Positions 2,950 through 31,970 of a DNA stretch of 31,970 nucleotides are shown here, piece after piece. Made by a program: the position numbers and the translations under genes. Each line of letters starts with the position of its first letter. The stretch's first letter is position 1. The notes under the pieces were generated by a model. It worked only from the letters and a program-made list of their open reading frames with translations. It was not told the origin of the DNA and made no database searches. The stretch comes from a virus: the IMG/VR virus record IMGVR_UViG_3300010233_000148, positions 516 to 32,485 of that record; one strand, written 5' to 3'.

Positions 2950-3258
2950 ATGACTGACATCAAGACAAACATCAACCAGATACCAGTAGTTAACAAGAGA
3001 TTATATAAGGAAACAGCAGGCATGAATAAAGTAGAACCTGCAGTGGTAAAGGATATAGTGGAACACATTGGTAAGTTTATACATGACACTATCAAGCGGG
3101 GAATGATGGAAACGGTGATGATCAATGACTTTGGTAAGTTCAGGCCCAAGACCAAAATACTGATAGCCATGTATAAAAAAGGCCTTAATGAGGGTAACAA
3201 TATGCGTACTATGAGTAAACTACTGGCAGGAAGAAAGATTAAAACCAAGGATAAATGA
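2950..3258 (+). CDS. IHF/HU-like DNA-bending protein
   Basis: This 102-aa basic protein contains the HU/IHF core. Two helices (about 28-50, VEPAVVKDIVEHIGKFIHDT) are followed by the beta turn VMINDFGKFRPK (about 57-68), equivalent to the I-x-x-F-G-x-F segment of HU and IHF. The protein then becomes Lys/Arg-rich (RKIKTKDK). Crassvirales genomes carry IHF-like genes in the structural half, which fits this location. The likely role is DNA bending or compaction, in packaging or in the infected cell; which one is not shown by sequence. The DNA-gripping arm seems degenerate compared with bacterial HU. The stop codon overlaps the next start as ATGA (3255-3258), so the two genes are probably translationally coupled. 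Confidence 0.8.
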   Translation: MTDIKTNINQIPVVNKRLYKETAGMNKVEPAVVKDIVEHIGKFIHDTIKRGMMETVMINDFGKFRPKTKILIAMYKKGLNEGNNMRTMSKLLAGRKIKTKDK

Positions 3259-4004
3259 GACTATTTGAAATTGACCCGGACACCTCAACTATCAAACTCA
3301 ACAAGGAATGGATCCTGCTTATACCCGAGTTCGCTGAACTGTTTAAGCGTGACAAAGGTTCTGAAGGAGACTACCGTGGTGATAAGAAACTAAAGACCAA
3401 AAAGGAGCTTACCTTCGTCTACTTCTATGTAGATTTTGCCTCACCGATAACAGATTACGAAGAATCAGAACGCTGGCGTGAAGCCCTGTACTATGCTGAC
3501 CTCACCGAGAAAGATATTGATGAGAAGGTGATCAATGCCTATAAGAAATATGGAGAGATACAGGTAAAAGGTTCACGTTCCCTGCGTACTTACAAGTCCC
3601 TGCTCAAGACACAGGATGCAATGGATAGTTACTTTGAGAACCTGGATATGCGTAAGCTTGATAAGAAAGGGGAACTGCTTAATGATCCGGTGCGCGTAGC
3701 TAACTCAGTTACAGGATTAAAGAAGATGTATGATGCTATTAATGACTTCCGTAAACGGGTGGAAACTGAACTCAAGGATGCAAGTACTGGTATTCGTGGT
3801 ACTGCAGAGCTGGGGGATAATGAAGGTAAGGCCCGTATCTTCTCAGAGATGGATGTTATTAATGGCAGTAAGCATTCAGCTGAGGGAAGCACACCAACAG
3901 GAGCCAGTTTTGGTGAAGTAATGAGCAGTATACATACCCTGGCCAAACAGGAATTAAATATATCACAGGCAGAACTTGAAGCCACTAAAGATGATGAAGA
4001 GTAA
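3255..4004 (+). CDS. Protein upstream of TerL, candidate small terminase subunit
   Basis: This 249-aa protein is charged and mostly helical. Its N-terminus is MRLFEIDPDTSTIKLNKEWI; the middle (about 60-170) contains Tyr- and Lys-rich helices (ERWREALYYADLTEKDIDE) and the C-terminus is acidic (ELEATKDDEE). A conserved-looking segment, KKYGEIQVKGSRSLRTYKSL, precedes the helical region. Its position between the IHF-like gene and TerL, with 4-nt and 1-nt overlaps on each side, fits a small terminase or a packaging accessory protein. No DNA-binding motif is evident, so the assignment is contextual. The conserved location next to TerL in crAss-like genomes would be the first thing to compare. Confidence 0.75.
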   Translation: MRLFEIDPDTSTIKLNKEWILLIPEFAELFKRDKGSEGDYRGDKKLKTKKELTFVYFYVDFASPITDYEESERWREALYYADLTEKDIDEKVINAYKKYGEIQVKGSRSLRTYKSLLKTQDAMDSYFENLDMRKLDKKGELLNDPVRVANSVTGLKKMYDAINDFRKRVETELKDASTGIRGTAELGDNEGKARIFSEMDVINGSKHSAEGSTPTGASFGEVMSSIHTLAKQELNISQAELEATKDDEE

Positions 4005-6121
4005 TGGGATTCCACAAACTGGTTAATACCGCACAGTTCTCCTACACTGCCCGTGATTTTAAGGCTAACGGGGGAAGATATACTACAGCACCTAAAGGTA
4101 GCCGTGATTACTTCCGCTTCTGGGAAGAAGAAGAGAAACGCTGCTTATATGGATACAAATGTGCAGACCTCTGGATACCGGGCAGGATGTATTTCTACAT
4201 GAACTTCTTTCCCATGTCGAGGGTACCTGAAGCTGTTATGCTCAGGGCCTTAGAAGAACGCCGCTCATCAAAGACTGGACGTATATCACAGGTTGCAGTA
4301 GAGAAGACCATTGAGTTTCCTGCATTCTGGGAAATATCCTATGAATGGTGGAACCTGAAGCATATTGCCTGGTATGGTGGTGAGTTTATGGGTGTACATT
4401 CTGAAGGTAATAAACACATGTGTGCCCTGAAAACCAGGGGTGCTGGCTTCTCTTATATGGAAGCTGCAGATGGTGTATATAATTACAATTTTATACCAGG
4501 TTCTAAATCTTACTACTTCGCAGGTACTGAACCTTATCTTGTCGGTGATGCTATCATGGATAAGGTACAGGCAGGGTTGGACTGGATAAACCAGCACTCA
4601 CCTTACTGGAGACAGAACAGGCAGGTAAAGAAATCTGTAATGCACCAAAAAGCATCTTACCTGGATAGCTATGGTGTGGAGAAAGGTTCCTTCTCTGAGA
4701 TCATAGCTCAGGTAGTGGATAAACCTTCCAAAACAAGGGGTAAACGTGGACGTAAGATAGTAATGGAAGAGGGTGGTTCATTCCCTAAACTGGAAGATGC
4801 AGTGGAGGTATCACTGGGTAGTATATCCGAAGGTAGCATATACGTAGGGCAGATGTCAGTATTTGGTACCGGTGGTGAAAAAGGGCCGGGTATCCAGGGA
4901 TTGGAAAACATATTCTCAAATCCGGTAGCCTGGGATATGCTGGCATTTAATAACATCTGGGAAGAGGGTTATCAGAATACAAAGTGCGGATACTTCGTTC
5001 CCTGCTACCGGGCCAACTCCTGGTATATGGATGAAGCGGGTAATGTGGATGTAATTGGTGCCATGAGGGCCGATACTATCCAGAGGGAAAAGAAGAAACT
5101 TACCGGTAAACCTAAAGATCTTGACCGGCGTAAAGCTGAGTATCCGCGTACACCGAAGGAAGCCCTGCAGCGTATGACTGGTAATGGATTTAATATTGAA
5201 GAGTGTGAGGCACAGATAAGAAGGATAGAAACCAGTAAAGCTTTGCAGGCAATGATACGCCATGGTAAATTCCTGCGTAATCCTGAAGCCGAGAAGAATG
5301 ATCCGCATAGAGGGGTAGAATTCCTGCCACAACCAATAGCAATAGCTAAACCTATACTGGATTACCCACATAACCAAAAAGATGACCTGACAGGTTGCGT
5401 AAGTATTATTGAACGTCCCTTCACCGATGCGTCTGGCAGGGTACCTGATGATATGTACCTGCTTACTTTTGATAGCTATTATAAGGAACAATCAGAAGAC
5501 CAGACCTCACTATGGAGCTGGAAGATATGGAAGCTGGCTAATCCTTATGACCAGTCATACGTTGACTTACCAGTAGCCTGGTGTGCTGGCCGCCCGGTGA
5601 AGTACCAGGATAATATTGACAGGATGTTTGCTGCTATGGATTACTATAATGCTAAAACGCAGGGTGAGATCGCTGGTGGTGGACAGGCTGTAGTAAACCA
5701 TGCACGTACACACCGCAGGCTGGATAGCTTAAAGCATGAACCTGAAATGGCCCATAATAAAGAACTGGCCAGTAAATCTGCCGGCAATTCCTACCTGATG
5801 AATATGTCTGAAGGACGTAAAGCTTTAGGTATAACCTATATGGAAGACTGGCACATGCAGCCACGTGGAGTGGATGAGAAAGGTAATATTATACTAACAG
5901 TACACCGTATATACGATGTGGCGTGGCTCAGGGAGATGGCCAAGCATAATCCTGAAGAAGGTAACTTTGACCGTATATCTGATGGTATAATAGCCATGTA
6001 CGAGATCAAGGAAAATTATGCTACACAGATAAAGCGCCGACGTAAGAAGAGGGAATTCTTTAACCGGCAGCTATATGGGGATGGACAGGAAAGTTCCTCT
6101 GGTACTACTACGGCGTATTAA
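4004..6121 (+). CDS. terL: Terminase large subunit (TerL)
   Basis: The 705-aa length and the motif order identify the packaging ATPase/nuclease. An N-terminal region rich in aromatic residues (DYFRFWEEEEKRCLYGYKCA) is followed by a Walker A-like loop at about 143-151 (KTRGAGFSYM). A Walker B follows at 251-256 (KIVMEE, then GGSFP), with a coupling motif FGTGG near 287-291. The C-terminal RNase H-like nuclease begins with YLLTFDSYYK (Asp 490) and ends with ISDGIIAMYE, where the Asp is the usual final metal ligand. The Walker A loop lacks the usual GKS/T lysine (GFS instead). The protein powers DNA translocation through the portal and cuts concatemers. It starts inside the stop of the previous gene (TAATG) and is followed by a promoter-like box before the portal gene. 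Confidence 0.93.
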   Translation: MGFHKLVNTAQFSYTARDFKANGGRYTTAPKGSRDYFRFWEEEEKRCLYGYKCADLWIPGRMYFYMNFFPMSRVPEAVMLRALEERRSSKTGRISQVAVEKTIEFPAFWEISYEWWNLKHIAWYGGEFMGVHSEGNKHMCALKTRGAGFSYMEAADGVYNYNFIPGSKSYYFAGTEPYLVGDAIMDKVQAGLDWINQHSPYWRQNRQVKKSVMHQKASYLDSYGVEKGSFSEIIAQVVDKPSKTRGKRGRKIVMEEGGSFPKLEDAVEVSLGSISEGSIYVGQMSVFGTGGEKGPGIQGLENIFSNPVAWDMLAFNNIWEEGYQNTKCGYFVPCYRANSWYMDEAGNVDVIGAMRADTIQREKKKLTGKPKDLDRRKAEYPRTPKEALQRMTGNGFNIEECEAQIRRIETSKALQAMIRHGKFLRNPEAEKNDPHRGVEFLPQPIAIAKPILDYPHNQKDDLTGCVSIIERPFTDASGRVPDDMYLLTFDSYYKEQSEDQTSLWSWKIWKLANPYDQSYVDLPVAWCAGRPVKYQDNIDRMFAAMDYYNAKTQGEIAGGGQAVVNHARTHRRLDSLKHEPEMAHNKELASKSAGNSYLMNMSEGRKALGITYMEDWHMQPRGVDEKGNIILTVHRIYDVAWLREMAKHNPEEGNFDRISDGIIAMYEIKENYATQIKRRRKKREFFNRQLYGDGQESSSGTTTAY

Positions 6122-6154: not shown

Positions 6155-8587
6155 ATGGAGCAATCAAATACTGTAACAGCTGTACCCAATTCGCTCAACA
6201 CTGGTGTAAGGCCTGTACAGATATTACCTTACAGTGAAAAGACTGACGATTGGTTTATCAGTAATGTCAACTTCTTTATCAGTAAGACCAATTATAATTA
6301 TGGCACTGAATCATCAACACGTAAAGATCTCTACACCTTATATAATGTATACAATAACCAGTTCCCGCTTAACTGGTTTGATCATATCACAAATCCTCTC
6401 TCAGCAAAGAAGAAAGAGAATAAAGCATTCCCGGCGAAAATAAGGCCGGTTACCATACTTCGTCCAAACATAGACTTGTTACTGGCTGAGTTTCGTCACC
6501 GGCCCTTTACCTATGACGTGGAAAACTTAGGGGATTCCGGATACAGTGCCTATATGAACAGCATGTCCCAGGCTGCACAAAAGAACTTAACCGATCATTT
6601 TATACAGGCAGCCCTGCAGGAAGCGCAAGCCTCTGGCCAGCAACTTACACCGGAACAACTACAGCAACTACAGCAAAATCCACCACTACCAGATGAGGTA
6701 AAGGAAGAATTCCAATCTTCATACAAAGATGCTATGGCTATCAAAGCCCAGAAGTGGATGAACCGTACTGTACGTGAACATGAAATACGCCGTAAGCAGC
6801 ACCGTATGTTCAAGGACTGGCTGATTGCCGGTGAGGCATATTCTTATAAAGGGGTGGATAATGACAGACTGGTATATAACCATATCTCTCCAATGAACCT
6901 GGATTATGATATGAGTGAAAAAGAAGAGTTCATTGAAGATGCTGAGTGGGTGGTACACCGTGATTTCTGGACATTATCAGATGTAGTGGATACCTTCTAT
7001 CCGGTATTGCAGGAAGAACAGATGCAGAGATTGGAAAAGAATTCTTCTTATTCCATGTACTATACTACACCGGGAAGATTCTTTGATTACATGAATAATA
7101 GAGGTACCCATGGTAAGATACCGGTATTCCATGTACAATGGAAGGGTAAAAAGAAGATAGGTTTCCTTAGTTACCTGGATATGCAAACCTTCCAGTTAGT
7201 GGAAGAGGTAGTGGATGAGGATTATATCGTGGACAGATCCCGGGGAGAGCAGGTAGAATGGCGCTGGGTAAACGAAGTATATGAAGGCTGGAGATTAGGT
7301 GATGATATATACACCCGCATGCGTCCCGCTACTATACAGCGTACTGAAATGAATAACCATTCCATGTGTAAGCTATCTTACAATGGACGTAAATATTCCA
7401 ATGCACACTCTGCTAATATATCTGTACTGGAGATTGGTATACCATTCCAGATCATGTATATTATTGTGACCTATATACTGGAACGTACTATTGCCAAGAG
7501 TAAGGGTAAGATAGTGCTGATGGATATTAATACCATTCCGGATAATGAAGACTGGGATGAGGAAAAGTTCTTCTACTATGGTGAGGCTATGGGTTATGCA
7601 TTAATAGACCGTAGCCAGACTGGTGTGGATAAAAGCTGGAACCAGTACCAGGTTCTTGACCTGAGCCTGTTCGACCAGATTAAACAACTCATTGAATTGC
7701 AGCAGCATTTCAAACAGGAGTGGGATGATATACTGGGTATCAACCGTCAGCGTAAAGGACAAACTCTGTCCAGCGATGGGCAAGGTGTAAATGAGAGGGC
7801 CACTTTCCAGAGTACGGTAATGACCGATATGATATTCATTGGATTTGAAGAGTTCACTGCCCGTGATATGCAGGGTATACTTGACCTTGCCCCTTACCTC
7901 ACCGCGAAAGGACAGTATGCACAGTATAATGACAGTGATTACGGTAATGTGCTTATGCAGATAATGCCCGGTGATTTCATCAACGAAGACCTGGGAATAT
8001 TCATGCAGGATGCCAGTACAGCTATCCAGCGTATCAACGAGATGAAGCAGTATGCACAGGCTATGATACAGAATAACCACCAGCCCAGTACAGTAATGGA
8101 AGTATTATCAGCGGTAAATGTAGCTGACCTGAAAGCTAAGCTTAAACAGATTGAGCAGATTGATCAGCAGATTCAGCAGGCTACACAACAGAGTGAACAG
8201 GATGCTGAAGCACAGGCTGATGAGCGTAAGAAGGAATTCGCCCAGTTTGAAGAACTGCTTACTGAAAAGAAGATTAACCTGGAGTACGACCGCAAAGAAG
8301 ATATTGAATACATTAAAGGTATGTTCAACACCTTTACTTTTAAAAACGGGGATAGCGATGCCAATGGGGTACCAGATGCAGAACAGGTAATGAAAATGGA
8401 TCTGGAACGTACCCGCATCAAGCAGGATTATGAGCAAAAGTTACACGACCGTAACCAGAAGTACAGTGACCTTGACCGTAAGGAAAGAGAACTGAATGCT
8501 ACCATTGCACAGAATAAGGCAGGCAATGCCCTTAAGGCTAAACAGATACAAGTATCAGCAAAGAAGAAGACAACACCATCTAAATAA
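6155..8587 (+). CDS. Portal protein
   Basis: The 810-aa protein follows TerL and precedes the scaffold and capsid genes, the classical portal position, and its length is that of crAss-like portals. The N-terminal half contains a Gln-rich helical insert (about 150-180, LTPEQLQQLQQNPPLP). The central region (about 400-560) includes ILERTIAKSKGKIVLMDINT and a helix-rich part with ELQQHFKQEWDDILGINRQR. The last ~170 residues are a strongly charged, coiled-coil-like Gln/Lys/Glu segment (QIEQIDQQIQQATQQSEQDA onwards) ending in a basic tail (KKKTTPSK). Portals form the dodecameric ring at one capsid vertex, the docking site for terminase and later for tail proteins. No frameshift or unusual feature was seen. 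Confidence 0.88.
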   Translation: MEQSNTVTAVPNSLNTGVRPVQILPYSEKTDDWFISNVNFFISKTNYNYGTESSTRKDLYTLYNVYNNQFPLNWFDHITNPLSAKKKENKAFPAKIRPVTILRPNIDLLLAEFRHRPFTYDVENLGDSGYSAYMNSMSQAAQKNLTDHFIQAALQEAQASGQQLTPEQLQQLQQNPPLPDEVKEEFQSSYKDAMAIKAQKWMNRTVREHEIRRKQHRMFKDWLIAGEAYSYKGVDNDRLVYNHISPMNLDYDMSEKEEFIEDAEWVVHRDFWTLSDVVDTFYPVLQEEQMQRLEKNSSYSMYYTTPGRFFDYMNNRGTHGKIPVFHVQWKGKKKIGFLSYLDMQTFQLVEEVVDEDYIVDRSRGEQVEWRWVNEVYEGWRLGDDIYTRMRPATIQRTEMNNHSMCKLSYNGRKYSNAHSANISVLEIGIPFQIMYIIVTYILERTIAKSKGKIVLMDINTIPDNEDWDEEKFFYYGEAMGYALIDRSQTGVDKSWNQYQVLDLSLFDQIKQLIELQQHFKQEWDDILGINRQRKGQTLSSDGQGVNERATFQSTVMTDMIFIGFEEFTARDMQGILDLAPYLTAKGQYAQYNDSDYGNVLMQIMPGDFINEDLGIFMQDASTAIQRINEMKQYAQAMIQNNHQPSTVMEVLSAVNVADLKAKLKQIEQIDQQIQQATQQSEQDAEAQADERKKEFAQFEELLTEKKINLEYDRKEDIEYIKGMFNTFTFKNGDSDANGVPDAEQVMKMDLERTRIKQDYEQKLHDRNQKYSDLDRKERELNATIAQNKAGNALKAKQIQVSAKKKTTPSK

Positions 8588-9871: not shown

Positions 9872-11308
9872 ATGAACGCGTTTTTGCCCCAGTTGAAGTT
9901 CCAGGTGCAGGAAAGTATGTTCGACTCCAAGTCGATGCTTGACGAAACCAACTTCTATCACCAAAGGCAGGGTATGCCATCAGAGCTGACAAAGCAACTG
10001 ACCTATATCCTTGGTTCCTATACCAAAAATTATCCGATCTCTACCATGACCCTTGGTGGTGTGGGCTTCGGTAACAACAACACCGCTATCGAACTGGACG
10101 ACGTTCAGTTTACCTACCCTGTTATGGGTCAGGATACCAAGGCATCGGTGATCTACTCAACAGAGTATACATCGAGCGATAAACCTGGTATAGGGAACAG
10201 CATATTCTATGCTACCTTCCCCGATAACTGGATCAAGCGTTATTACATTATACAGAGTACCAACCGTATTGAGGCTTACGTACATAGCGATAACACCAAA
10301 TGGGTAGAACTATTTACCCAGGTTGCCGAAAGTGAATCACGTTCTACTGAGAGCAAAATGGTTATGCCAGGTTTGTTCAAGAACCAAATGGGTTTCATGA
10401 GGGCTGGTATGAGCTGGGCCGGTAATGCTGCCAACAAAATGATGAAGATCAATGTAGGTGTGGCACAACCTGATGGTAGTATGAAAGAAACCATGGTGTG
10501 GATGGATTACTTCATGTGGCAGTTTGAAAAACGCTGGTTAGAAGAATGCGAACATTACTACTGGTATAGCCGCTATAACAGGCAGGCAGATGGTACTATC
10601 GACCTGAAAGACTTGTTAACCGGCAAGGTTATTCCTACTGGTTCAGGTTTACTGGAACAGATCATCAACAAATCAACCTATTCAAGCCTTACCTATAAAT
10701 CACTGGCTGCAAAGATCGGTGATGCATTGTTCGGACAGAATGATTCTGCTGGTATGAATATCACCTTGTATGGTGGTACAGGTGCGCGCAGGGAGTTCCA
10801 TAAAGCTATCCTTGCTGAGGGTGGTACTTACTTAACCAACTACCAGGCGGTGGCTGATAAGTTTGTAACTGGTTCAGGTAGTAACCTGATGCTGGGTGGA
10901 TACTTCGATGGTTTCTATCATATCGATGGTTACACTATCAAGTTCAAACACAACCAAATCTACGATACAGGACGTGTGGCTAAAGCTTCACCATTGCATC
11001 CTCAAACCGGTTTACCCCTGGAATCTTACCGTATGACCTTCATCGATGATGGAGATGTTGACGGTCAGCCAAACATCCGTCACGTAGCACAGAAAGGACG
11101 TGCTTACCTGGATGGTGTGGTACCTGGTCTTACACCAATGCCAAATTCATTAAAGATACTGGTTGGACAAAACAGTGGTGGCGCTGAATCCAAAGTACTG
11201 GCAACAGTACAGGATAAGAGCGAATATACCCGCTTTAAATCCGGTGGTATCCAATTAATGAGGGGTAACCGTTGCTTCGACTTACAGTGCGTTGCAGGTT
11301 TATCATAA
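9872..11308 (+). CDS. Major capsid protein (HK97-fold expected)
   Basis: The 478-aa protein matches the length and place of crAss-like major capsid proteins, after portal and scaffold. The N-terminus (FQVQESMFDSKSMLDETNFY) is helical. The middle is rich in aromatics (WMDYFMWQFEKRWLEECEHY, about residues 210-229), and the C-terminal third has the alternating strands and glycines expected of an HK97-type P/A domain (LYGGTGARREFHKAILAEGG; GYFDGFYHIDGYTIKFKHNQ). Codon choice shifts towards C-ending codons relative to neighbours, as expected for the most abundant virion protein. A strong terminator follows directly, so this gene ends the packaging/head transcription unit. Confidence 0.87.
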   Translation: MNAFLPQLKFQVQESMFDSKSMLDETNFYHQRQGMPSELTKQLTYILGSYTKNYPISTMTLGGVGFGNNNTAIELDDVQFTYPVMGQDTKASVIYSTEYTSSDKPGIGNSIFYATFPDNWIKRYYIIQSTNRIEAYVHSDNTKWVELFTQVAESESRSTESKMVMPGLFKNQMGFMRAGMSWAGNAANKMMKINVGVAQPDGSMKETMVWMDYFMWQFEKRWLEECEHYYWYSRYNRQADGTIDLKDLLTGKVIPTGSGLLEQIINKSTYSSLTYKSLAAKIGDALFGQNDSAGMNITLYGGTGARREFHKAILAEGGTYLTNYQAVADKFVTGSGSNLMLGGYFDGFYHIDGYTIKFKHNQIYDTGRVAKASPLHPQTGLPLESYRMTFIDDGDVDGQPNIRHVAQKGRAYLDGVVPGLTPMPNSLKILVGQNSGGAESKVLATVQDKSEYTRFKSGGIQLMRGNRCFDLQCVAGLS

Positions 11309-15457: not shown

Positions 15458-16046
15458 AAAAACATATACCCTGGTAGACATCTGGCAGGATTATGTAAAA
15501 CAGGTATTGACAGAACACCCAGAATACTGGACAAGATTTAAGAACTATATGTCCAATTATGTTATTTACCGTAAAGTAGGTAACAGGGTAGAGGAAGTAA
15601 TGAGTTATGTACGATACCGCAAGATAGTGGCAGAGTATATCACCAGGGCCAAGAAGGCTATCATAAAAGGAGAGGCAGTTAATATTACCGGAAGTGTAGG
15701 TAAGATATGTGCCCGGCGTGTGGAAAGGGATTTCAGGGCTACCAAAAAGAAGGTGGATTATCATAAAACGCGTCAGCAACCACTCGTCGAAGATCCGGTA
15801 ACAGGTAAGAAGAAATATGCTCATGTGATTTACTTTAGTGATGATGACTGGTGCAGGATTGGATGGCATAATACCCATAAAATAAAGAATGAAAAGGTGT
15901 ATGAATTCAAGCCAACCAATCCCAACAGTGCCGGCAAAGGTGATACAGGATTTAAAGCACAGTTCGTGGCAGCATTAAGGGCAGACCCTTTATTAAAATA
16001 CCAGTATCTGTATTTCACGATCAAACAAAATAAGGAAACAACATGA
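15438..16046 (+). CDS. Basic structural or neck protein, ~202 aa
   Basis: The likely start is the ATG at 15438 (MPRTVNKKTYTLVDIWQDYV), because the 9 codons before it (from 15411) lie deeper in the previous gene. The protein is strongly basic and helical (GNRVEEVMSYVRYRKIVAEY; GKICARRVERDFRATKKKVD) and ends with an aromatic segment (LKYQYLYFTIKQNKETT). SDDDWCRIGWHNTHKIKN near residue 140 is a compact Trp/His-rich turn. It overlaps the preceding gene by 20 nt and shares ATGA with the next, so it is tightly embedded in the neck/tail gene cluster. Basic charge may reflect contact with DNA or an acidic partner. No family is named with confidence. Confidence 0.7.
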   Translation: MPRTVNKKTYTLVDIWQDYVKQVLTEHPEYWTRFKNYMSNYVIYRKVGNRVEEVMSYVRYRKIVAEYITRAKKAIIKGEAVNITGSVGKICARRVERDFRATKKKVDYHKTRQQPLVEDPVTGKKKYAHVIYFSDDDWCRIGWHNTHKIKNEKVYEFKPTNPNSAGKGDTGFKAQFVAALRADPLLKYQYLYFTIKQNKETT

Positions 16047-17215
16047 TATACAAATCAACTTCCATAGAAGATGTTATCGGCCGGGTATTACGCAATACCA
16101 GGGTACAGGACAGTTCCTATATCACTGATATGGGAGAGTGGATACCTGAAGCGATGGATTATATGAAAACCCGGGTATCCCTCCAGCTACTATGGAAGGA
16201 TGTGGAGATAGATTTCTATAAAGGAAAATTACCTTGCGGATTACGTACACTCAGGGCAGTATCACATAATAACTGCAGGCTAAGGCCTTATGAAGGGGTT
16301 AAAGCTGCCAGCGCAGGAAGGGAAAGAGATGAAGACCGGACTTTAATGTTTGTATCAGCTCCTGTTGGCCCGATAACCACTACCCATTCAGGAACACTTA
16401 CTGAGTACGATTACGTATGGACAATACCAACTGATAATACCATAGGATTTATATACCTGATAGTAAGTATGGTGATTAATGGAACCACTACTTCTGTCAA
16501 TGTATCGGTGAATACCAGTACCACACCAAATATAAACAGCACGATCGCGGCATTACAGACAGCGTTAAACGCACTGGGTAAGGGTACCTTTACAGTAACC
16601 TTTGATTTGTCTAACAATATAGTGATCTCCACACTGGCCAATACCAATATACTGGGCCAGATACAGGAAGCTACCACCAAGTTCTCTCCATCAGGCGCTC
16701 CATTCAATTATTATTCTCCATCAGTGACCACTAACACAGTGCCCATCGGTGTAGACACATTACTGGAAAGTAACGTGCCTTATATTCCGGCACAGACCTT
16801 CAATATAGAAACAGTAATGTCATTACCCTATTCAGATGAAACTTACTACACCGAACTGGATTGGATAAATACCTCATTCAAATGTGGTAAGGTAAGGTTA
16901 TACTATATGGCCATACCTGTAGATGCCAATGGATTCCCACTGGTACCGGATAATGGTAATTATAAGGAAGCCATATACTGGTATGTGAGAAGCAGGATGA
17001 TTGGCGCAGGTTATAAAGATACTGTATTCAAGTACCAGGAGTGTGAACAGAAATTTGAACTGCATGCTGCACGGGCCATGGGCCAGATACGTTATCCTTC
17101 AGTTGATCAGGCAGAAACCCGCATGCAGCAGGGTAGCCGGTTGATAATGGATATGAACTACTTTGATACCTTTTTCAGTAACCCGGGTAATGAAAGTTAT
17201 ACACAAATGTTATGA
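16043..17215 (+). CDS. Tail tubular / connector protein, P22 gp4-like
   Basis: The 390-aa protein has the split architecture expected of gp4-like connectors. An N-terminal helical part (IEDVIGRVLRNTRVQDSSYI then WIPEAMDYMKTRVSLQLL) is joined to a C-terminal helical part (EAIYWYVRSRMIGAGYKDTV, FELHAARAMGQIRYPSVDQA). Between them, at about 118-230, lies a Thr/Asn-rich beta insertion (YDYVWTIPTDNTIGFIYLIV; a helix STIAALQTALNALGKG; then FTVTFDLSNNIVISTLANT). This resembles the add-on modules of the decoration-type protein at 13426. Such proteins form the ring that joins the portal to the tail. It starts inside the previous stop (ATGA) and overlaps the next start in the same way. Confidence 0.8.
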   Translation: MIYKSTSIEDVIGRVLRNTRVQDSSYITDMGEWIPEAMDYMKTRVSLQLLWKDVEIDFYKGKLPCGLRTLRAVSHNNCRLRPYEGVKAASAGRERDEDRTLMFVSAPVGPITTTHSGTLTEYDYVWTIPTDNTIGFIYLIVSMVINGTTTSVNVSVNTSTTPNINSTIAALQTALNALGKGTFTVTFDLSNNIVISTLANTNILGQIQEATTKFSPSGAPFNYYSPSVTTNTVPIGVDTLLESNVPYIPAQTFNIETVMSLPYSDETYYTELDWINTSFKCGKVRLYYMAIPVDANGFPLVPDNGNYKEAIYWYVRSRMIGAGYKDTVFKYQECEQKFELHAARAMGQIRYPSVDQAETRMQQGSRLIMDMNYFDTFFSNPGNESYTQML

Positions 17216-23020: not shown

Positions 23021-25383
23021 TGGCAATACCAAAAGCATCATTATATGACAGGTACAAGCTGAGCAATAGTTCAGCTATTCCTATGTTTGAGGGTAGCAAT
23101 GGCCCTGAATCTATTCAGGTAGCCTCTCATCTGCAGGGAATATACGATACTGCCTCACAGGGAGCGGCTGATATTGGTGATGCAGTGAATAATGTACAGG
23201 CATTAGGGCCTGACCAGTCTTTAGCTAAGGAGTTACAAGATAACATCCATAGTAAGATCGATGAGTATTCCAAAGCTGGTAACTGGGAAGACATGCTTCC
23301 GCAGGTTCGTTCCCTTGGCCGGCAGTATGCCGCACGTTCAGCAGAACTTTATCAGCCAGTACAGCAGTTTAATGAGTGGCAGAAAGGATTGGAAAATAAA
23401 GACCTGAATCTTACACCCTACCAGAAGGATTCTCTTAAATCTATGGCGCTATCTAATTACCAGGGTTTAAGGAAAGACCCCTCTGGTAAACTCGTGGGTA
23501 AGTTTGACTCACCGGAGATAGCCAAGAATGTAGATGTGAACAAGAAAGTAGATGAATGGATGAAGGATATTGCCATACAGAAAGGTGGTTCAGAAATAGC
23601 CAATGTTAATGGTGAATGGAAGATAAAGAAGGGTAATAACTGGGAAACCTTAGCACCAGGCACTATTGAAAGAACGCTTAACGATGCTATGGCCAATGAT
23701 AATGAGTTCATGGCCCATGTAAAACAGGAGGGTGATATTGCAGGCTATAACGGAATGAAAGCAGTACGCAGTATGGATCAGCTTGCACCGGCTGTACAGC
23801 AAATAGTAAAAGATAATATAGCCAAAGGTTATCCATTAAGACAATCAGTACAGGCTGCGCTGGCTACTGCACAGCAACAGCATATCATGAATACTGCCAA
23901 AGATTATGCAGTAACCAAGTACCAGTATAATAAACGTGTAACCAGCAGCGATATTGAGGACAATCCTAATTACTGGAAGGAACGTGAAGAGAAAGCCAAA
24001 GCACAGAATGGTATCTTCGGTGATGTGGTGACTGGTGGTGGTATTGATGTTAGCAAGTATAATAGTGCTGATGACATCGAAACTAACCGTACTGCTGCAG
24101 TTAAAGACCTGGAACGTGCAGGTAACGAGATAGGAGCAGCTAAAAATGTAATCGCCGCTAAACTGGGTACTGCAGTAGATAACCTCACCGACAAACAAAT
24201 ACAAGACTACTATGCTAAATACGACCCTGCAGGACTGGGTAAATATAAATCTAACCTGCAGGCTATGCAAAGCAATCAATCCAGTATTGATGAGGCTGAC
24301 CAGATACGTACTGCAGCAATGGATTTAGCTACCCGTAAGAAAAACCCGGGATTATCCTATGATGAATTACAGAAAACCAGTACTGATAACTTCCAGAAAA
24401 CAGCTAAGGGCCTAAAACTGGTTGCTGAGGATGGTACTAAAATTACAGATCCTTCTAAGTATACTGTTATCGATGGGGCACAGCATGCCTTCGGTGATAA
24501 CTATGTAGAATTAAAAGACAGGTCTACTGGTAAAGTATTGAAGCTAATAACTGCGGGACAGAGTGGCGATAACGCCAATGATAATGATAAGCTTACTAAT
24601 ATAGCCGGCAAGTTCAATGGTATCAACTGGAAGGATACCTGGAAGGATGCGGCTACCAATATACGTTCCAACAGTATGTGGATGCCATTACTTAACAAGA
24701 GTACACCAGATGGACAAACCACTAAAGCCGGTGAATATGAAACCAGGGTTAAATCCGTACTGGAGGCTGGTAGTGGCGGATTAAATGTAAAAAATGCGGA
24801 CTTCGGTGATATTAAGGGAGATGATGCACAGGAGATGCGTGATAGAATTGCTTCTGGTAAATTTGAGGTTAAAGGTATTGGTAAAGTAAAAGCCGATGGT
24901 AAAATGTATGTACAGTTATCTGTACAAACATCCAGTGAGAAGGACGAACCAGATCCGGCCAAACGTTTCAAAACTATAGTAGTTGGTGTAGAAAGTAATG
25001 TGGCCAATAAACTGGCTGGCTATGCAGTGGATGCAGGACGCAGGGACAATGATATACGCACTTATCAGTTCGGTCGGGCCATGGCACCAAACAGTGGCTA
25101 TGAACAGGTATTAAATATGGGTAGTACCGGAAGACTCCAAATAACTGAAAAAGGAATAGCATCAGGACGTGGAGGCAATGAGATTGTACAACGCCCTACC
25201 GAAGAGGTGGTACCTAATATCACCGGTTCTTCTTCAGATGCTATGACCTATGAAGTATACAAACTCGATAGTGAGGGTAAACGTACAGGCCAGGTAGAAA
25301 CCTTCAATGATGCATTTGATTTAGGGGCTTACCTGGATGCTCATAAAGATGCAGGAAGAACAATAGTAAAGAAGACTAAGTAA
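23020..25383 (+). CDS. Large helical cargo or structural protein, 787 aa
   Basis: The N-terminal third is helical and resembles internal virion proteins (MAIPKASLYDRYKLSNSSAI; SLAKELQDNIHSKIDEYSKA). The central region (about 220-470) is Gln/Lys/Asp-rich with possible coiled coils (VQQIVKDNIAKGYPLRQSVQ; EREEKAKAQNGIFGDVVTGG). The C-terminal half contains beta-like segments (VELKDRSTGKVLKLITAGQ; KGIGKVKADGKMYVQLSVQT). No catalytic motif is visible. In crAss-like phages, long proteins in this location, between the tail stabilisation gene and the giant ejection or RNA-polymerase-bearing genes, are virion cargo; that assignment is inferred here. It starts in the stop of the previous gene and its own stop overlaps the next start. 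Confidence 0.7.
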   Translation: MAIPKASLYDRYKLSNSSAIPMFEGSNGPESIQVASHLQGIYDTASQGAADIGDAVNNVQALGPDQSLAKELQDNIHSKIDEYSKAGNWEDMLPQVRSLGRQYAARSAELYQPVQQFNEWQKGLENKDLNLTPYQKDSLKSMALSNYQGLRKDPSGKLVGKFDSPEIAKNVDVNKKVDEWMKDIAIQKGGSEIANVNGEWKIKKGNNWETLAPGTIERTLNDAMANDNEFMAHVKQEGDIAGYNGMKAVRSMDQLAPAVQQIVKDNIAKGYPLRQSVQAALATAQQQHIMNTAKDYAVTKYQYNKRVTSSDIEDNPNYWKEREEKAKAQNGIFGDVVTGGGIDVSKYNSADDIETNRTAAVKDLERAGNEIGAAKNVIAAKLGTAVDNLTDKQIQDYYAKYDPAGLGKYKSNLQAMQSNQSSIDEADQIRTAAMDLATRKKNPGLSYDELQKTSTDNFQKTAKGLKLVAEDGTKITDPSKYTVIDGAQHAFGDNYVELKDRSTGKVLKLITAGQSGDNANDNDKLTNIAGKFNGINWKDTWKDAATNIRSNSMWMPLLNKSTPDGQTTKAGEYETRVKSVLEAGSGGLNVKNADFGDIKGDDAQEMRDRIASGKFEVKGIGKVKADGKMYVQLSVQTSSEKDEPDPAKRFKTIVVGVESNVANKLAGYAVDAGRRDNDIRTYQFGRAMAPNSGYEQVLNMGSTGRLQITEKGIASGRGGNEIVQRPTEEVVPNITGSSSDAMTYEVYKLDSEGKRTGQVETFNDAFDLGAYLDAHKDAGRTIVKKTK

Positions 25384-28300
25384 TGATACAGAATCCGGAC
25401 GATCTATATACAGGCGGCCCGGGGCCTAAAGCCCCTCTTCCTAAACCAGCAGCAGCGCCTGCAGGTAATCCCGTGGATAATTATATGGCCATGCGTGCTA
25501 CCGCACAACCTTCTATGCAGCATGCCGGTTCTTCTTTTAAAGTAGAGGGAGTAGATAACAGTGACCAGGCAAAATTATTCGGTGATACTGGTATTTATGA
25601 TCCTGGCCTTACTGGTGAGAATATATCTCAGCAGGCAGGAGCCAGGCAGAGCTTTGGTAATAAACTGGCCCGCCGTGCTATTAATATAGTTCCAAATATG
25701 GTAGCTGGCTTAATTGATATGGTGGGTAATGTAGGTTCACTGGCCTTTGAATGGGGTGATAACCGCAATTATCATAACGGACTAAATGATATAGCTGATA
25801 GTATCAAAGACCCCGATGGTAAGGTATATCACCAGAGTAATGATACCTGGGCTATTAATGACCCTGCCTGGTGGGTAGACCACATTGGAGGATTCGCTGA
25901 AATGGCAGGTACTTTTGCTGTGGGTGGACTTGGCGCTTCTAAATTATTAGGGTTGGGAGCTGAGGCTTTAGCCGGAGTGGATGATATTTCACAGGCTGGT
26001 AAACTATGGCAAGCCGGCACACAAATGGCCAACTCATCCCTGATGTCTTATGTAATGGGTGCGCAAGGTGGTGCCAATGTATATAAAGAAGTTTATGATA
26101 ACCAGTTCACGAAGCTTATGGCTCAGGGCTTGTCTTCTGATGAAGCGCATACCCAGGCTACACATATCGCTGCACAATCTGCAGCCTCTACAGCTCAGTT
26201 GACTACCATGCTTACTATGGGGATGAATGTAGGGGCTTTCGCGCCATACTTTAAATCCCAGGAAGATGCTGTCACCGATGTCATTGCCAAGAACATAGCT
26301 GGTGCAGAAGATCGTACTGCAGGTGGATTAGCCGCCAGTGTAAGAGGTATGAATGCTGAAGATTATGCTGACCAGTTATTTCATCATAGTACTATACTGC
26401 AGAAAGTAGGTGAGATGGGTAAGATCGGTACGGAGATGCTGGCTATCAAGTTCGCTGAGAAGACTGGTACTGATCTGGGTAACAAAGGAAAGACCAGAGG
26501 CTTCCTGGATCAACTCGGTGAATTAAGTAACGTAGTGGACAGGGTAGGTAACTCAGAAGGTTTACTATCCTTTGTGATGGGGGCTGCTATGGGCGGGCTG
26601 CAGCATTACCTCACTAATAATATTATACCTGGCCGCAGTATTGATAAACTGGATCCTGATGGTACACCAATGCAGGCAGTGGATAAAGAAGGTAATCTGA
26701 TGACTGATGACAACGGCGTACCGGTTATACAGAAATCATTTGTTACACCAAGGGCTTATGAAAAGGACTTCACTAAACGGAGGTTTAATAATATAAGGGA
26801 TGCCATTGCTGCAGACTTCGATGCACATGACCAGGCTCAGCAGGATCTTATAAAAGCAGTGAAGGACAATAAACCCCTGGATGCTGAGGAGGCTAAGGAC
26901 AGGATGTTCAATGTAACTAAACTATCAGCTATTAAGATGGGCCTTACCGAACCATGGAAGAAGACCTTTGATAGCATAGCCAATATGTCCCCGCAGGATG
27001 CACTCTCAGCTGGCTACACCAATGATGTAAAGGATGATAGCTATAAGACTAAAGCCAATGATGCAATAGCTGATCTCAGTCATCTTACTGATTTATATCA
27101 GGGATTAAAGAAGAAGTACGGCAGTAGCCCTACGATGGATCCACTGGTTGATATGGTATTCGGCCGCATGGCTGACATCTATGATACTGGCAAAAGGCTG
27201 GAGAAGTTTGAGAAGAACCTTACCGATAAAGAGACTGAGGAGAATTATATGACCAAGCTCACTAATCCACAGGAATTCTCTGATAATCTGAATGAGTATT
27301 TACGTCAGCATAATTCAGCAGTGGAAGTAGAGAAGCAATTACTGGAAGATCACAAAGCTTTAATAAAAGGTGATCCTAAAACAGTACAGGATCTGTTAAC
27401 CAAATACCGGGCTACTGGCTTTGGTGATGGAGATACAACTGGTTCAGCAAGGGGTCTGGCTATCAAACTGGGTAATAAGCATGAAGAAGTTATTGCAAAG
27501 GTTAAGCAGGCTGAAGAGAACCTGCTTAATAGCTCTGACTACGTTAAATGGTTAGAAGACCACCCTGATGGAAAGTTTGACCAGTTCATGGAAGAAGTGA
27601 ATGACCATGCTAACCTTTCTGCAGAGAACAGGTACATGCGGGCTGAGCTGGATAAGGCTAAAGAAGTACATGACATTGCCAAAAAGAATATGAGTGATAT
27701 GACAGCGGACAGCAGTGTACGTAAGTTTAGCCGTAAAGCTAATGAATGGATTGACCAGTTGAAGAAACAAACTGATGAGGATAATAAACGTGATACGGTA
27801 AGGCTTGCTGAAATGACCAAGGATAAAACTACCCTTGACCAGTTACAGAAAATAGAACTTAACCGTATCGCTGAGGCGCATCGCGTGGAAAGAGATAAAA
27901 CCTATACTACCATTAATGATAATGTAGCTAAGATACAGAAACTTAAAACTGCTATGGACAGCGTAAAGTCCAGTGACATACTACGCACCCTGGGATTAAA
28001 ACGCCAGATAAAAGAACTACAGAAGCAGAATGAATCTTTATCAGCCAGGGCAAAGAAATTGGATACCCTGTTCAATGAGTATCATGTAGATACTGCACCG
28101 GATACTAAACCTGTAGATGTGGAAGAAGTGACAGGTGAACAGGATGGTAAGATAACTGAAGATGCCAGCCAGTTTCCAACCACAGCAACTATTACAGCAC
28201 CTTCTATCAAAATAGTAGGAGAACCAGAGCAGATTACTGAACCCATTGAATTAAGCACTGAGGTACCGGAGGAGGAAACTAAGAATGAAAATGATTATAG

Positions 28301-30551
28301 CCACCTGTATAGCCACCTGTATAGCCACCTGTATAAAGGTATTACCTCACCAGCGGTTAAGTTATCAATGAATAGGATACTGGATGGCCTATTCGATGGC
28401 ACAGTAGGATTTTCTCTTGATCTGCTGAATAAAGAAATAGCAGCCGGTATTATCACACAGGAGAAGGCAGTCAAACTGTTAAGTAAAGCACAGGACTATG
28501 TTAATGATATTCAGGAAACTTACGACCTGCTAAACCAGCAATTTGATGTTGAAGATAATCAGCCAGTACCTGCAGATACAATACAGATCGAAGGTATTGA
28601 GGAGCCAACTACACCGGTAACCAATAACAGTGATGAGCCTGCACCAGATGATATTCCCATTCCACTGGGATACCATGCCGGCTATAAGATAGTGGAAGCT
28701 GCATCTACCGGCGCTACCAGTACCATCAATTATGATGAAGGTACCCGTAAAGATAAAGATGGTAAACTGGTTTACTTTAAAGTGGCCAGACCTAATGAAC
28801 TAAATCCTAAACTTAACCAGGATATTCTGCATCCGGATAAATTATTGCCTAATACCAAACTCATCTATGAAGTGGATACAGAGTATGATGGTGAGAAGAA
28901 TATAACCAATAACCTGAGTTGGGATAATGAAGGTAATGCAGTAAAAGAACGGGAAAAGGGTAGTGACTACCTGGATAATAATGGTAAGGTATTATCTCAT
29001 CCCCGTAATATCGGTAACGTACCCATCCGTGTAATGGATGCCTCTACTGGTAAATATCTTTTTCACATCCGTAAACTGGATTGGCTGGAAGCGAAATTCC
29101 CAGACACTACAGATTACCGTAATATTGTGGATAAAATTCCTTCGCCAGATGGGGATGGATTTGTGGATAACTTAGATGCACAACGTGTGGAACTAATAAA
29201 TTTCCGTTCAGCCATTGTGGATAAATTTAATCATGATGGTAAAGGAACTGAAGGGAAGATCTCATCTGAAGGTAAAGGAACCGGTAGATTGATACTCAAT
29301 AATGAGACTACCAAGGGTGATGGTACTTCAATGAAATCAAAGGTTAAGCAGGAGTTTGCCATCAATAAGGCTAACCCTGAAAAATCTATGCTGCCTGATA
29401 AGTCATTACAACTGGTTATAACAGATAAAGATGGTACAATATACTCATTCAAAAACCATGAATTCGATAAACCACTGGGATTTGACCCATCTAAATCAAA
29501 CATGGTTAAGGGCGGTGTAGGCGCAATGGTACCCGGGGCGAATGGTAAACATCTGTATGCGCCACTTACAGGTGTGAAGATAGTTGAAGGCGATAAACCT
29601 TCTGCCGGACTAAACTCAATTACCCGGGCTATCGAACTATTCTTACTTAACGACGGAACTATACCTGCTGTTGGTGACGAAATTAATAATATCAAGAGCA
29701 ATACTGGCTTCAACATTGCAACGCCCAAGGGCCTTAAAGCATTCGTTAACCAGTACTACACTTACTCCCAGGGCTTCCAGGATTCCGTACTATCACCGGG
29801 AGTGGTGGATGATGAGCGTTTCCTATTCCATATTGAGGATAATGATAGCCGGTTACTGGATAAGACCAAGCAAATAAAGATTGGCTGGACAGGCCGTGGC
29901 GACGGTGTACGCTACGCTGATCTCACTAATGGTAGCCTTACACCAGCGTTTAAAGATATGCTAAAGGAAGGCCTTGCCACGCGCTCCCGTGCAGTTGTAT
30001 ACACCGACGCTTCTCAGGGATTGAAAGGTATCAACAGTATGGATAAATTTATCGATGCCATTCATATACCCGGGCAGGGATGGAAATTCAACGACTACGA
30101 AAACTATAATGAATATGTTAAGTCATTCTCTAAGACAGCGGTGTATGGCCGTAACCAGCTCGATGATGGTACATACGTATACACAGCTAATCCTTCACTA
30201 CCCATTGATACAAAGGGTACAATTAATAATAGCTCATTCCTCATAGATGAGAATAAGACTGCTCAAACAGTTAAGGTACCGGAACCTGACGTAGAGAAGA
30301 CTGGCGCTGAAATGCTGGACAGTCTTTTCGATATGTCGATCAGGGCCTCTAAACCTAAAGTAGTGGATGAGGCTGGTACCGGTTCAGATAAAAGCCGGCC
30401 ACTCACTGTTCAAACCTTGGAAGAAATCTATAACTTTACCCCTGAAGCACAGCGTAACGGTAAAACTGTAAGGGAGGTATTTGAGGATCTTTCATCAAGG
30501 GGGCATGGTTATCTTTCTGATGGGTTCAACCCGTTTTCCCGCTGTCTTTAA
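25383..30551 (+). CDS. Giant cargo/ejection protein, 1722 aa
   Basis: The N-terminus is Pro/Ala-rich (PGPKAPLPKPAAAPAGNP). Amphipathic or hydrophobic segments follow: about 97-122 (ARRAINIVPNMVAGLIDMVG), 168-200 (FAEMAGTFAVGGLGASKLLG) and 260-290 (HIAAQSAASTAQLTTMLTMG), as in ejected inner-membrane-interacting phage proteins. Helical, coiled-coil-rich sequence covers roughly 470-930, with a charged linker holding a YSHL repeat (972-983). A C-terminal beta-rich region (about 1110-1600) contains IPVRVMDASTGKYLFHIRKL-like and GTGRLILNNETTKGDGTSMK strands. It ends SDGFNPFSRCL. No RNA-polymerase DxDGD motif was seen. It is in the same frame as the next ORF, separated by one TAA and 6 nt. Confidence 0.75.
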   Translation: MIQNPDDLYTGGPGPKAPLPKPAAAPAGNPVDNYMAMRATAQPSMQHAGSSFKVEGVDNSDQAKLFGDTGIYDPGLTGENISQQAGARQSFGNKLARRAINIVPNMVAGLIDMVGNVGSLAFEWGDNRNYHNGLNDIADSIKDPDGKVYHQSNDTWAINDPAWWVDHIGGFAEMAGTFAVGGLGASKLLGLGAEALAGVDDISQAGKLWQAGTQMANSSLMSYVMGAQGGANVYKEVYDNQFTKLMAQGLSSDEAHTQATHIAAQSAASTAQLTTMLTMGMNVGAFAPYFKSQEDAVTDVIAKNIAGAEDRTAGGLAASVRGMNAEDYADQLFHHSTILQKVGEMGKIGTEMLAIKFAEKTGTDLGNKGKTRGFLDQLGELSNVVDRVGNSEGLLSFVMGAAMGGLQHYLTNNIIPGRSIDKLDPDGTPMQAVDKEGNLMTDDNGVPVIQKSFVTPRAYEKDFTKRRFNNIRDAIAADFDAHDQAQQDLIKAVKDNKPLDAEEAKDRMFNVTKLSAIKMGLTEPWKKTFDSIANMSPQDALSAGYTNDVKDDSYKTKANDAIADLSHLTDLYQGLKKKYGSSPTMDPLVDMVFGRMADIYDTGKRLEKFEKNLTDKETEENYMTKLTNPQEFSDNLNEYLRQHNSAVEVEKQLLEDHKALIKGDPKTVQDLLTKYRATGFGDGDTTGSARGLAIKLGNKHEEVIAKVKQAEENLLNSSDYVKWLEDHPDGKFDQFMEEVNDHANLSAENRYMRAELDKAKEVHDIAKKNMSDMTADSSVRKFSRKANEWIDQLKKQTDEDNKRDTVRLAEMTKDKTTLDQLQKIELNRIAEAHRVERDKTYTTINDNVAKIQKLKTAMDSVKSSDILRTLGLKRQIKELQKQNESLSARAKKLDTLFNEYHVDTAPDTKPVDVEEVTGEQDGKITEDASQFPTTATITAPSIKIVGEPEQITEPIELSTEVPEEETKNENDYSHLYSHLYSHLYKGITSPAVKLSMNRILDGLFDGTVGFSLDLLNKEIAAGIITQEKAVKLLSKAQDYVNDIQETYDLLNQQFDVEDNQPVPADTIQIEGIEEPTTPVTNNSDEPAPDDIPIPLGYHAGYKIVEAASTGATSTINYDEGTRKDKDGKLVYFKVARPNELNPKLNQDILHPDKLLPNTKLIYEVDTEYDGEKNITNNLSWDNEGNAVKEREKGSDYLDNNGKVLSHPRNIGNVPIRVMDASTGKYLFHIRKLDWLEAKFPDTTDYRNIVDKIPSPDGDGFVDNLDAQRVELINFRSAIVDKFNHDGKGTEGKISSEGKGTGRLILNNETTKGDGTSMKSKVKQEFAINKANPEKSMLPDKSLQLVITDKDGTIYSFKNHEFDKPLGFDPSKSNMVKGGVGAMVPGANGKHLYAPLTGVKIVEGDKPSAGLNSITRAIELFLLNDGTIPAVGDEINNIKSNTGFNIATPKGLKAFVNQYYTYSQGFQDSVLSPGVVDDERFLFHIEDNDSRLLDKTKQIKIGWTGRGDGVRYADLTNGSLTPAFKDMLKEGLATRSRAVVYTDASQGLKGINSMDKFIDAIHIPGQGWKFNDYENYNEYVKSFSKTAVYGRNQLDDGTYVYTANPSLPIDTKGTINNSSFLIDENKTAQTVKVPEPDVEKTGAEMLDSLFDMSIRASKPKVVDEAGTGSDKSRPLTVQTLEEIYNFTPEAQRNGKTVREVFEDLSSRGHGYLSDGFNPFSRCL
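28296..28334 (+). repeat. 12-bp in-frame minisatellite (YSHL x3)
   Basis: TATAGCCACCTG occurs three times in tandem and is followed by another TAT. It encodes YSHL-YSHL-YSHL-Y in a charged linker of the giant cargo protein. The units are identical at the DNA level, which suggests recent slippage. Confidence 0.95.
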
Positions 30552-30557
30552 TACTAC

Positions 30558-31970
30558 ATGGCAATATGCGGTCACTTAGCAACTAACGGGGAAAAATCAA
30601 TTCTATACGATGAACTGTACCAGAAGTATGGGGAAGAAAAAGCGCACGACATCTGGGAAACAGTACGCTCACAGCAATTCCTGAATAAATATGGTGACTG
30701 GCTGGATGGAGAGAAAACTCAACCAGATAATACAGCTATAGCAGAAAAGATCATGGCATTCAAAACGAAAGATGAGTTTGATAATGCTTATAATAAAGCT
30801 ATAGAAGATTACCTGATGCCTGTATTACCAGAAGACAGTATGGGCACTGATGATTTTACATTGCCTGAGATTAAAAAGATGGTAACTAAGTTACAGTCTA
30901 AGAATAAAACAGTACCTGCTTTAAATAAGGTATCACTAGATACTAATGGTGAACCCACTACTGAGTGGGTAGAGAAGACACTTGGGTTGAATAAGCAAAC
31001 TATATCCTTTAAAGAAGAGCCTACTACAGGGTATAGGAATCGTACCATAAAGAATGCCTCTGCAGATGCTACTATAGCAATAGCTACGGACTTTGGATCA
31101 GCTGGGGAAAGGCTAACACATAACTCGGTGGTTAGTCAAGGCAAAAAGTATATACCGTTAGATGCAGATAGCTTTACATTACTATTAAGACCCGATAATA
31201 TCAAGAAGATAGTGAACCAGCTTAATTCAGTAAATGCAAAATCATTGAATATTGCTGGTAATGGTATATATACAATGAAAGGAATTTATACACAAACTCA
31301 AGTAGACGATTTTACCTATAAGTTATTGAAAGCAGTTACAGAACATCCAGACTTAAAGAATAAAATAGAATCAGTAAGGACAGGTGGACAAACTGGTTTT
31401 GATGAAGCAGGAGCAAAAGCTGGACTACGGTTAGGAATAGCCACAAATATACTAGCGCCTAAAGGATGGAAGTTTAGAAATGAATTTGGTACAGATATAT
31501 CAAATGAATCAGCATTTAAAGATAGGTTTAAAGGAATAGAACCTCCAGAAGGAAGTATTAATAAACTACCAATTACAAAAGAGAAAGTTAGCGATACCAG
31601 TGCTATCGAGCATAAGTTTGAAGGTGCACGTGATAAGTCTGGCCGTATCACCGAAAAGAATATGCTATCCCAGGTGGATAAATTATATAAAGATGCTACA
31701 GCTAATCCTGATAAGACTTACGTACTACCTTATGAAATGGTAAGTGAGAAAGGCAAACTGGATACCGGTCATACTGCCAGGGAACTGGCCAAATTTTTGG
31801 ATAGCCAGCCCATTCCGGATAATGTATCTATTAGCCCGGCTATACGTACACTCATCGATAACTCTCAAAAGAATCTTATAAAGGAATTCTCTATTGGCGC
31901 AGTACCACCGGAATTCATGAATAGCAATACACCAGCGGTAATGGAATCTGCTGCTAAGTTACTCATACCC
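30558..31970 (+). CDS. Partial polyvalent-type protein with GGQTG (SLOG-like) domain, open at window end
   Basis: The frame is open for 471 codons to the window edge. Residues 1-50 (ICGHLATNGEKSILYDELYQ to FLNKYGDWLDGE) resemble the start of large phage polyvalent proteins, with the ATNGExSxLY and YGDW motifs. Residues about 159-206 (NASADATIAIATDFGSAGER to GKKYIPLDADS) and 229-320 (LNIAGNGIYTM, then SVRTGGQTGFDEAGAKAGLR, LAPKGWKFRNEFGTDIS) together resemble a Rossmann-type SLOG/MoCo-carrier-like nucleotide-binding domain; the core motif is GGQTG at 276-280. Such domains bind nucleotides or nucleotide-derived ligands. The stretch around 31020-31600 is AT-richer than its flanks, consistent with domain acquisition. 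It likely enters the host with the DNA. The remainder after residue 345 is helical and unassigned. Confidence 0.7.
   Translation, partial: MAICGHLATNGEKSILYDELYQKYGEEKAHDIWETVRSQQFLNKYGDWLDGEKTQPDNTAIAEKIMAFKTKDEFDNAYNKAIEDYLMPVLPEDSMGTDDFTLPEIKKMVTKLQSKNKTVPALNKVSLDTNGEPTTEWVEKTLGLNKQTISFKEEPTTGYRNRTIKNASADATIAIATDFGSAGERLTHNSVVSQGKKYIPLDADSFTLLLRPDNIKKIVNQLNSVNAKSLNIAGNGIYTMKGIYTQTQVDDFTYKLLKAVTEHPDLKNKIESVRTGGQTGFDEAGAKAGLRLGIATNILAPKGWKFRNEFGTDISNESAFKDRFKGIEPPEGSINKLPITKEKVSDTSAIEHKFEGARDKSGRITEKNMLSQVDKLYKDATANPDKTYVLPYEMVSEKGKLDTGHTARELAKFLDSQPIPDNVSISPAIRTLIDNSQKNLIKEFSIGAVPPEFMNSNTPAVMESAAKLLIP

Follow-up and report, generated by a model that had tools for sequence, protein, structure and literature searches.

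A giant open reading frame (ORF) at the 3' end of a viral contig joins a nucleotide-binding domain of the SLOG type to other protein segments, which raises the question of what such a domain does on a giant phage protein and at what point of infection it would act. The stretch analyzed here, referred to as the window, comprises 31,970 nucleotides (positions 516 to 32,485 of IMG/VR record IMGVR_UViG_3300010233_000148). An original prediction, made from the letters of the window, described a virion-region polyvalent protein carrying a SLOG-like domain and potentially acting at the first moment of infection, together with an Acb2-like protein.

A giant ORF at the end of a Crassvirales contig

The major capsid protein, portal, terminase large subunit, and ring protein typical of the order are all present and place the window contig in the Crassvirales. 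The features on which the analysis draws are as follows.

4004 to 6121, plus strand: terminase large subunit (~30% identity to named crAss-like phages)
6155 to 8587, plus strand: portal protein (phrog_6547, E 6e-107)
9872 to 11308, plus strand: crassvirus major capsid protein (PF23898, E 8e-48)
16043 to 17215, plus strand: CrAss tail ring protein 1 (PF24228, E 5e-38)
25383 to 30551, plus strand: 1722-aa ORF immediately 5' of the 30558 ORF, occupying the place where cr111_1 has the gp47-like RNAP-associated giant
30558 to 31970, plus strand: giant ORF truncated at the end of the record (471 codons from its ATG, with no stop codon reached)
30558 to 31001, plus strand: N-terminal leader, residues 1 to 148, of the NGExSxLY...YGDW type (weak likeness to the N termini of ORFs after the virion RNA polymerase gene)
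31002 to 31529, plus strand: permuted YpsA-type SLOG domain, residues 149 to 324, as predicted from PF12694, phrog_10774, AlphaFold2, and 3imk
31032 to 31046, plus strand: YRNRT motif, residues 159 to 163 (kept in fused and standalone copies)
31248 to 31265, plus strand: NIAGNG motif, residues 231 to 236 (from motif comparison among homologues)
31383 to 31397, plus strand: GGQTG motif, residues 276 to 280 (invariant in 43 polymerase-fused copies, near-invariant in 38 standalone copies)
31635 to 31835, plus strand: residues 360 to 426, probable remnant of a macro-type module, matching its C-terminal half (own profile, tblastn)

The partial ORF contains the motifs first quoted for it, namely TGGQTGFDEAG (residues 275 to 285), LAPKGWKF (residues 299 to 306), and an N terminus reading ATNGEKSILY...YGDW. 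The full gene that the original prediction had hoped to obtain lies beyond this record, which is 32,485 bases long and shares its final base with the window, and the ORF has no stop. It closes a run of large ORFs of 1233, 389, 314, 787, 1722, and at least 471 aa. In cr111_1, two ORFs (742 and 591 aa) are followed in the equivalent stretch by an RNAP-associated giant of 1638 aa, then by the virion RNA polymerase (vRNAP) and a further RNAP-associated giant. From its position in the run, compared with this stretch and with crAss001, the window ORF probably belongs to a crAss-like cargo/transcription block. The earlier assignment to a virion region holds in this sense, as the giants gp47, gp49, and gp50 of phicrAss001 were found in virions by mass spectrometry and the giants of the vRNAP block are expected to be ejected along with the DNA (PMC10172136).

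The leader weakly resembles ORFs located 3' of the vRNAP gene in three other loci (L163, L077, and L164; E 8e-4 to 2e-3 over 43 to 53 aa), and because of this likeness the window ORF may be either the polymerase itself or the product of its neighbor gene. The ORF stops before any RNAP core with a DxDxD motif could appear; such a core is visible in relatives. The C-terminal part of the ORF had no relative among viral contigs, and the 1722-aa ORF upstream had no homologue in viral contigs or named phages. The term polyvalent protein fits loosely, as a SLOG domain and a partial macro-type module are the domains visible in 471 residues. The latter, at residues 360 to 426, matched positions 65 to 128 of our own 134-position macro-type profile (E 9e-8 and 3e-5) and a giant of cr50_1 (tblastn E 5e-3), and is probably the leftover of an earlier cassette, as judged from these alignments.

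Two small ORFs on the plus strand are also worth describing. An 81-aa ORF near the terminase gene (2050 to 2295) weakly matches the Acb2/Tad1 hairpin family (PF24729, E 0.0076, 16.9 bits, below the cutoff of 27) and is probably the Acb2-like protein of the original prediction, a partner for which the case is therefore weak. A 102-aa ORF (2950 to 3258) resembles IHF/HU-like DNA-binding proteins (PF00216, E 5e-4, slightly below the cutoff), which fits the IHF gene as a marker of crAss-like genomes.

A permuted YpsA-type SLOG domain

The assignment to SLOG was upheld by profile searches. Two stretches of the domain matched PF12694, the cpYpsA family of the SLOG superfamily (38.3 bits; cutoff 26.2). 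The domain also matched phrog_10774 (E 2.9e-27) and our own SLOG profile (E 1e-70), and it was 61 to 76% identical to ORFs of other viral contigs. A chance occurrence of the motif was rejected on the E-values. Structure prediction with AlphaFold2 recovered the Rossmann-like fold on which the earlier assignment hinged, with strands alternating with helices (pLDDT 93.8, pTM 0.90). In a Foldseek search of the PDB, 3imk was the sole match with E < 0.001, and VIA also ranked it first (Z 8.7 over 107 residues at 3.0 A, against Z 6.3 for the runner-up).

When a profile built from 36 sequences (the window domain and relatives) was compared with the PDB, 3imk matched with E 5e-17 and with the halves exchanged: profile positions 119 to 157 correspond to chain residues 3 to 41, and positions 5 to 88 to residues 53 to 136. 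The window domain thus shares the motifs GGQTGxD, YxxRT, and PKG and the fold with the cpYpsA family (PF12694; 3imk), but departs from the GGQTG-half-first order of its strict members and forms part of a fused phage giant. By profile and predicted structure, it is a YpsA-clade SLOG in the phage-type permutation of phrog_10774. The swapped halves, the macro-type half at residues 360 to 426, the Crassvirales origin of the contig, and the vRNAP-borne relatives described below all go beyond the original prediction. A giant of cr127_1 (BFVD A0A7M1RZT2_3) also has a SLOG-like fold (Foldseek E 1.7e-4; 13% identical to the window domain), and is perhaps a diverged copy.

Other SLOG homologues are standalone genes of ~180 aa. 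These phrog_10774 proteins, found in ICP1 and other Vibrio phages, have the same domain, order, and conserved residues, whereas the window domain belongs to a cargo giant. In fused and standalone copies alike, one set of 24 residues is >90% conserved, and this conservation argues that the fused copies keep the putative binding site. To our knowledge, no ligand or activity has been reported for phage YpsA-type SLOGs. The standalone gene of ICP1 (ORF146; locus L018, 2986 to 3752) overlaps the next gene, ORF145, by 4 bp. ORF145 is adfB, an antitoxin mimic whose anti-DarT activity is proven in ICP1 (PMC11481870), as its number, length, and Gly62 (allele) agree. An adfB homologue (56% identity) is also found closely downstream of the SLOG gene in Vibrio phage vB_CoeS_P1, and no adfB homologue was found near SLOG outside these two Vibrio phages. 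Vibrio phage 1.121.O has a NADAR gene two positions upstream of its SLOG gene.

Exchange of modules on virion RNA polymerases

A profile search of viral contigs for SLOG gave 79 loci, and 45 ORFs combined the domain with a vRNAP core, each of those listed having the DxDxD catalytic motif. The commonest position of SLOG is C-terminal to the core; it is N-terminal to it in PhiCrAssBcn1 and in loci L035, L076, and L077. In the closest relative of the window domain (L028, 76% identity), SLOG lies upstream of a DLDGD motif, and the core was missed by our own profile. The domain occupies a separate ORF in L006 and, preceding the vRNAP, in L061, and in the vRNAP ORFs of L066 and L089 (residues 2169 to 2475) a macro-type module sits inside SLOG, between its halves. 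SLOG is present in a minority of vRNAPs, 4 of 80 ORFs in a sample not chosen for it. The carrier in these relatives is the vRNAP represented by crAss001 gp50 and phi14:2 gp66, and gp50 is found in the virion (PMC10172136). However, the slot of crAss001 gp50 is empty, and the copy with mass-spectrometry evidence is one without a SLOG module.

Comparison of closely related phages revealed that SLOG moves as an exchangeable module among crAss-like vRNAPs. PhiCrAssBcn1 gp13 is crAss001 gp50 (99.4% identity over 2340 aa) with an insert of 196 aa, and that insert is the SLOG domain. Among 25 crAssBcn isolates, 5 have the SLOG insert, 9 have a helical insert of ~115 aa nearby, and 11 are empty. According to the crAssBcn paper (PMC10354031), PhiCrAssBcn20, which has the SLOG insert, and crAss001, which does not, belong to one species. 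At nearly the same slot cr112_1 carries a macro-type module of ~149 residues; the insertion points of these various modules are no more than about 25 codons apart. Kolpuevirus cr126_1 has NADAR (PF08719, E 2e-15) near the vRNAP N terminus, while the 87% identical Kolpuevirus 'frurule' has none at that place and has a macro-type module further down. The polymerases of L007, L010, and L011 are ~98% identical and share the same SLOG, with either no NADAR or two different NADARs. L036 and L051 are 99% identical in the core region and 63% in SLOG. Identity between SLOGs did not track identity between polymerases (rho -0.01, p 0.79; 29 fused representatives, 406 pairs, tree structure not corrected). 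This rank correlation and the Fisher tests below ignore shared ancestry, and vRNAPs evolve fast; the near-identical vRNAP pairs need no such correction.

The ~115-aa insert of crAssBcn4 to 12, seen for example in the N-terminal vRNAP slot of PhiCrAssBcn10 (L021, 9001 to 9560), is a candidate effector. It had no match in Pfam or PHROG and is not recognizably related to ADP-ribose (ADPr).

Other modules accompany SLOG on the polymerases. NADAR, which takes ADP-ribose off guanine in DNA (PMC11125620, PMC11543638), was present in 7 of 30 SLOG-bearing vRNAP clusters and in 1 of 76 SLOG-less ones (Fisher p 5e-4, ancestry not corrected). The macro-type module was not significantly enriched among SLOG-bearing clusters (3 of 30, against 2 of 76; p 0.14). 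This module had no Pfam match and was identified by our own profile, PHROG (phrog_2072), AlphaFold2, and PDB comparison. Its model (pLDDT 79) had macro domains as top structural matches, with TARG1 at Z 10.1 and DarG at 8.6, and its sequence profile matched TARG1 at only E 0.016; by this model, it folds as a TARG1/DarG-like macro domain. DUF7831 and ART-PolyVal modules were also found in ORFs of the vRNAP block. DUF7831 (PF25176) follows SLOG at the C-terminal end of the vRNAP in L010 and L011 and lies beside NADAR in cr130_1, which suggests that it, too, belongs to the cartridge set. The giant ORF of cr130_1 (L179) has 33 in-frame stops under table 11 with its domains otherwise recognizable, which suggests stop-codon recoding.

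Possible roles of a packaged SLOG domain

A virion-packaged NAD-ADPr toolkit and polyvalent proteins have already been proposed (PMC9503650, PMC5512222), with ART, Macro, NADAR, and SLOG domains acting at the start of infection. In that proposal, phage Macro, NADAR, and SLOG domains are typically standalone (PMC9503650), whereas here they are fused to the crAss vRNAP. A term search of these two papers found no mention of crAss phages. The crAssBcn paper describes the RNA polymerase as only slightly variable (PMC10354031), and a swappable vRNAP slot was found neither in its passages on variable ORFs nor in the open-access texts searched. The vRNAP fusion and the slot swapping appear to be unreported so far.

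The reading we favor, with a probability of roughly 55%, is that of a packaged crAss-like giant with an exchangeable SLOG cartridge, selected by the host and serving counter-defense on NAD/ADPr chemistry. SLOG would be carried on packaged proteins, chiefly the vRNAP, and ejected into the host alongside the DNA. There it would bind an NAD- or ADP-ribose-derived nucleotide or adduct from a host defense system, and might also cleave the N-glycosidic bond of this ligand, so that the genome would be protected ahead of all phage gene expression. Which cartridge is kept, whether SLOG, NADAR, macro-type, ART, or DUF7831, would depend on selection by the particular host, and cartridges would therefore come, go, and replace one another on a nearly constant polymerase. 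Such delivery and prompt action on an NAD/ADPr molecule are proposed because of the giants found in virions, the NADAR activity, the prediction that viral SLOGs degrade cADPR-like signals (PMC9503650), and the module data. We infer packaging of the window protein, the class of its ligand, and its counter-defense role.

Alternatively, SLOG could be a sensor that detects a host nucleotide (NAD+, an ADPr derivative, or an alarmone) and adjusts how active the vRNAP is or when early transcription takes place. That it is attached to the polymerase with which transcription begins would make sense in such a role, and SLOG sensors fused to nucleic-acid enzymes were proposed by Iyer in 2022 (PMC9503650). 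However, the domain may be N-terminal, just 5' of the catalytic region, C-terminal, or encoded by its own ORF, a placement more in keeping with a passenger than with an allosteric regulator, and near-identical vRNAPs do without it, which leaves sensing doubtful.

It is also conceivable that the cartridges act on the template, stripping ADP-ribose in cis from incoming phage DNA (or RNA) while the polymerase to which they are tethered reads it, and countering DarT-type toxins. The removal of guanine ADPr in DNA by NADAR (PMC11125620, PMC11543638), the TARG1 (Z 10.1) and DarG (8.6) matches of the macro-type module, and the adfB gene adjoining a standalone SLOG are all consistent with this. However, soluble signals as targets fit equally well, and some ORFs of the vRNAP block carry ART, an enzyme that adds ADPr. 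Furthermore, we know of no SLOG that strips ADPr off nucleic acid, and we judge template clearing by the cartridges unlikely. Its fuller form, in which rotating ADPr erasers on the vRNAP (NADAR, a TARG1/DarG-like macro domain, and SLOG) undo DarT-type marks in cis before phage genes are expressed, is likewise doubtful; if true, SLOG would represent a novel enzyme class, either of nucleic-acid ADP-ribose hydrolases or of ADPr-signal glycosidases.

A selfish or neutral insertion, tolerated as a passenger and spread through recombination with no benefit to infection, might explain why insertion points vary, why most vRNAPs lack SLOG, and why the partial macro module of the window resembles a decayed copy. 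Yet no mobility gene would fit into the inserts, the fused copies preserve 24 residues, and the recognizable inserted domains share one functional theme, with the NADAR association besides, all of which makes a passenger quite improbable. Finally, carriage of molybdenum cofactor, a frequent annotation of such proteins that 3imk and several phage genes bear as a name, was rejected because its basis is this name: it is an annotation rather than a tested function, Pfam now places the family under YpsA-type SLOG, and no molybdenum-cofactor genes were annotated beside the standalone copies viewed.

Under the favored reading of an exchangeable, packaged cartridge, the slot system would make phage YpsA-type SLOG domains accessible to experiment. 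The SLOG-less phicrAss001 and the SLOG-bearing phicrAssBcn20 are cultured, nearly matched members of the same species, which makes the function directly testable. Few viruses of the human gut are as abundant as the crAss-like phages, and their early encounter with Bacteroides immunity is little understood; should the slot prove real, the module it holds would mark the host defenses that each phage faces.
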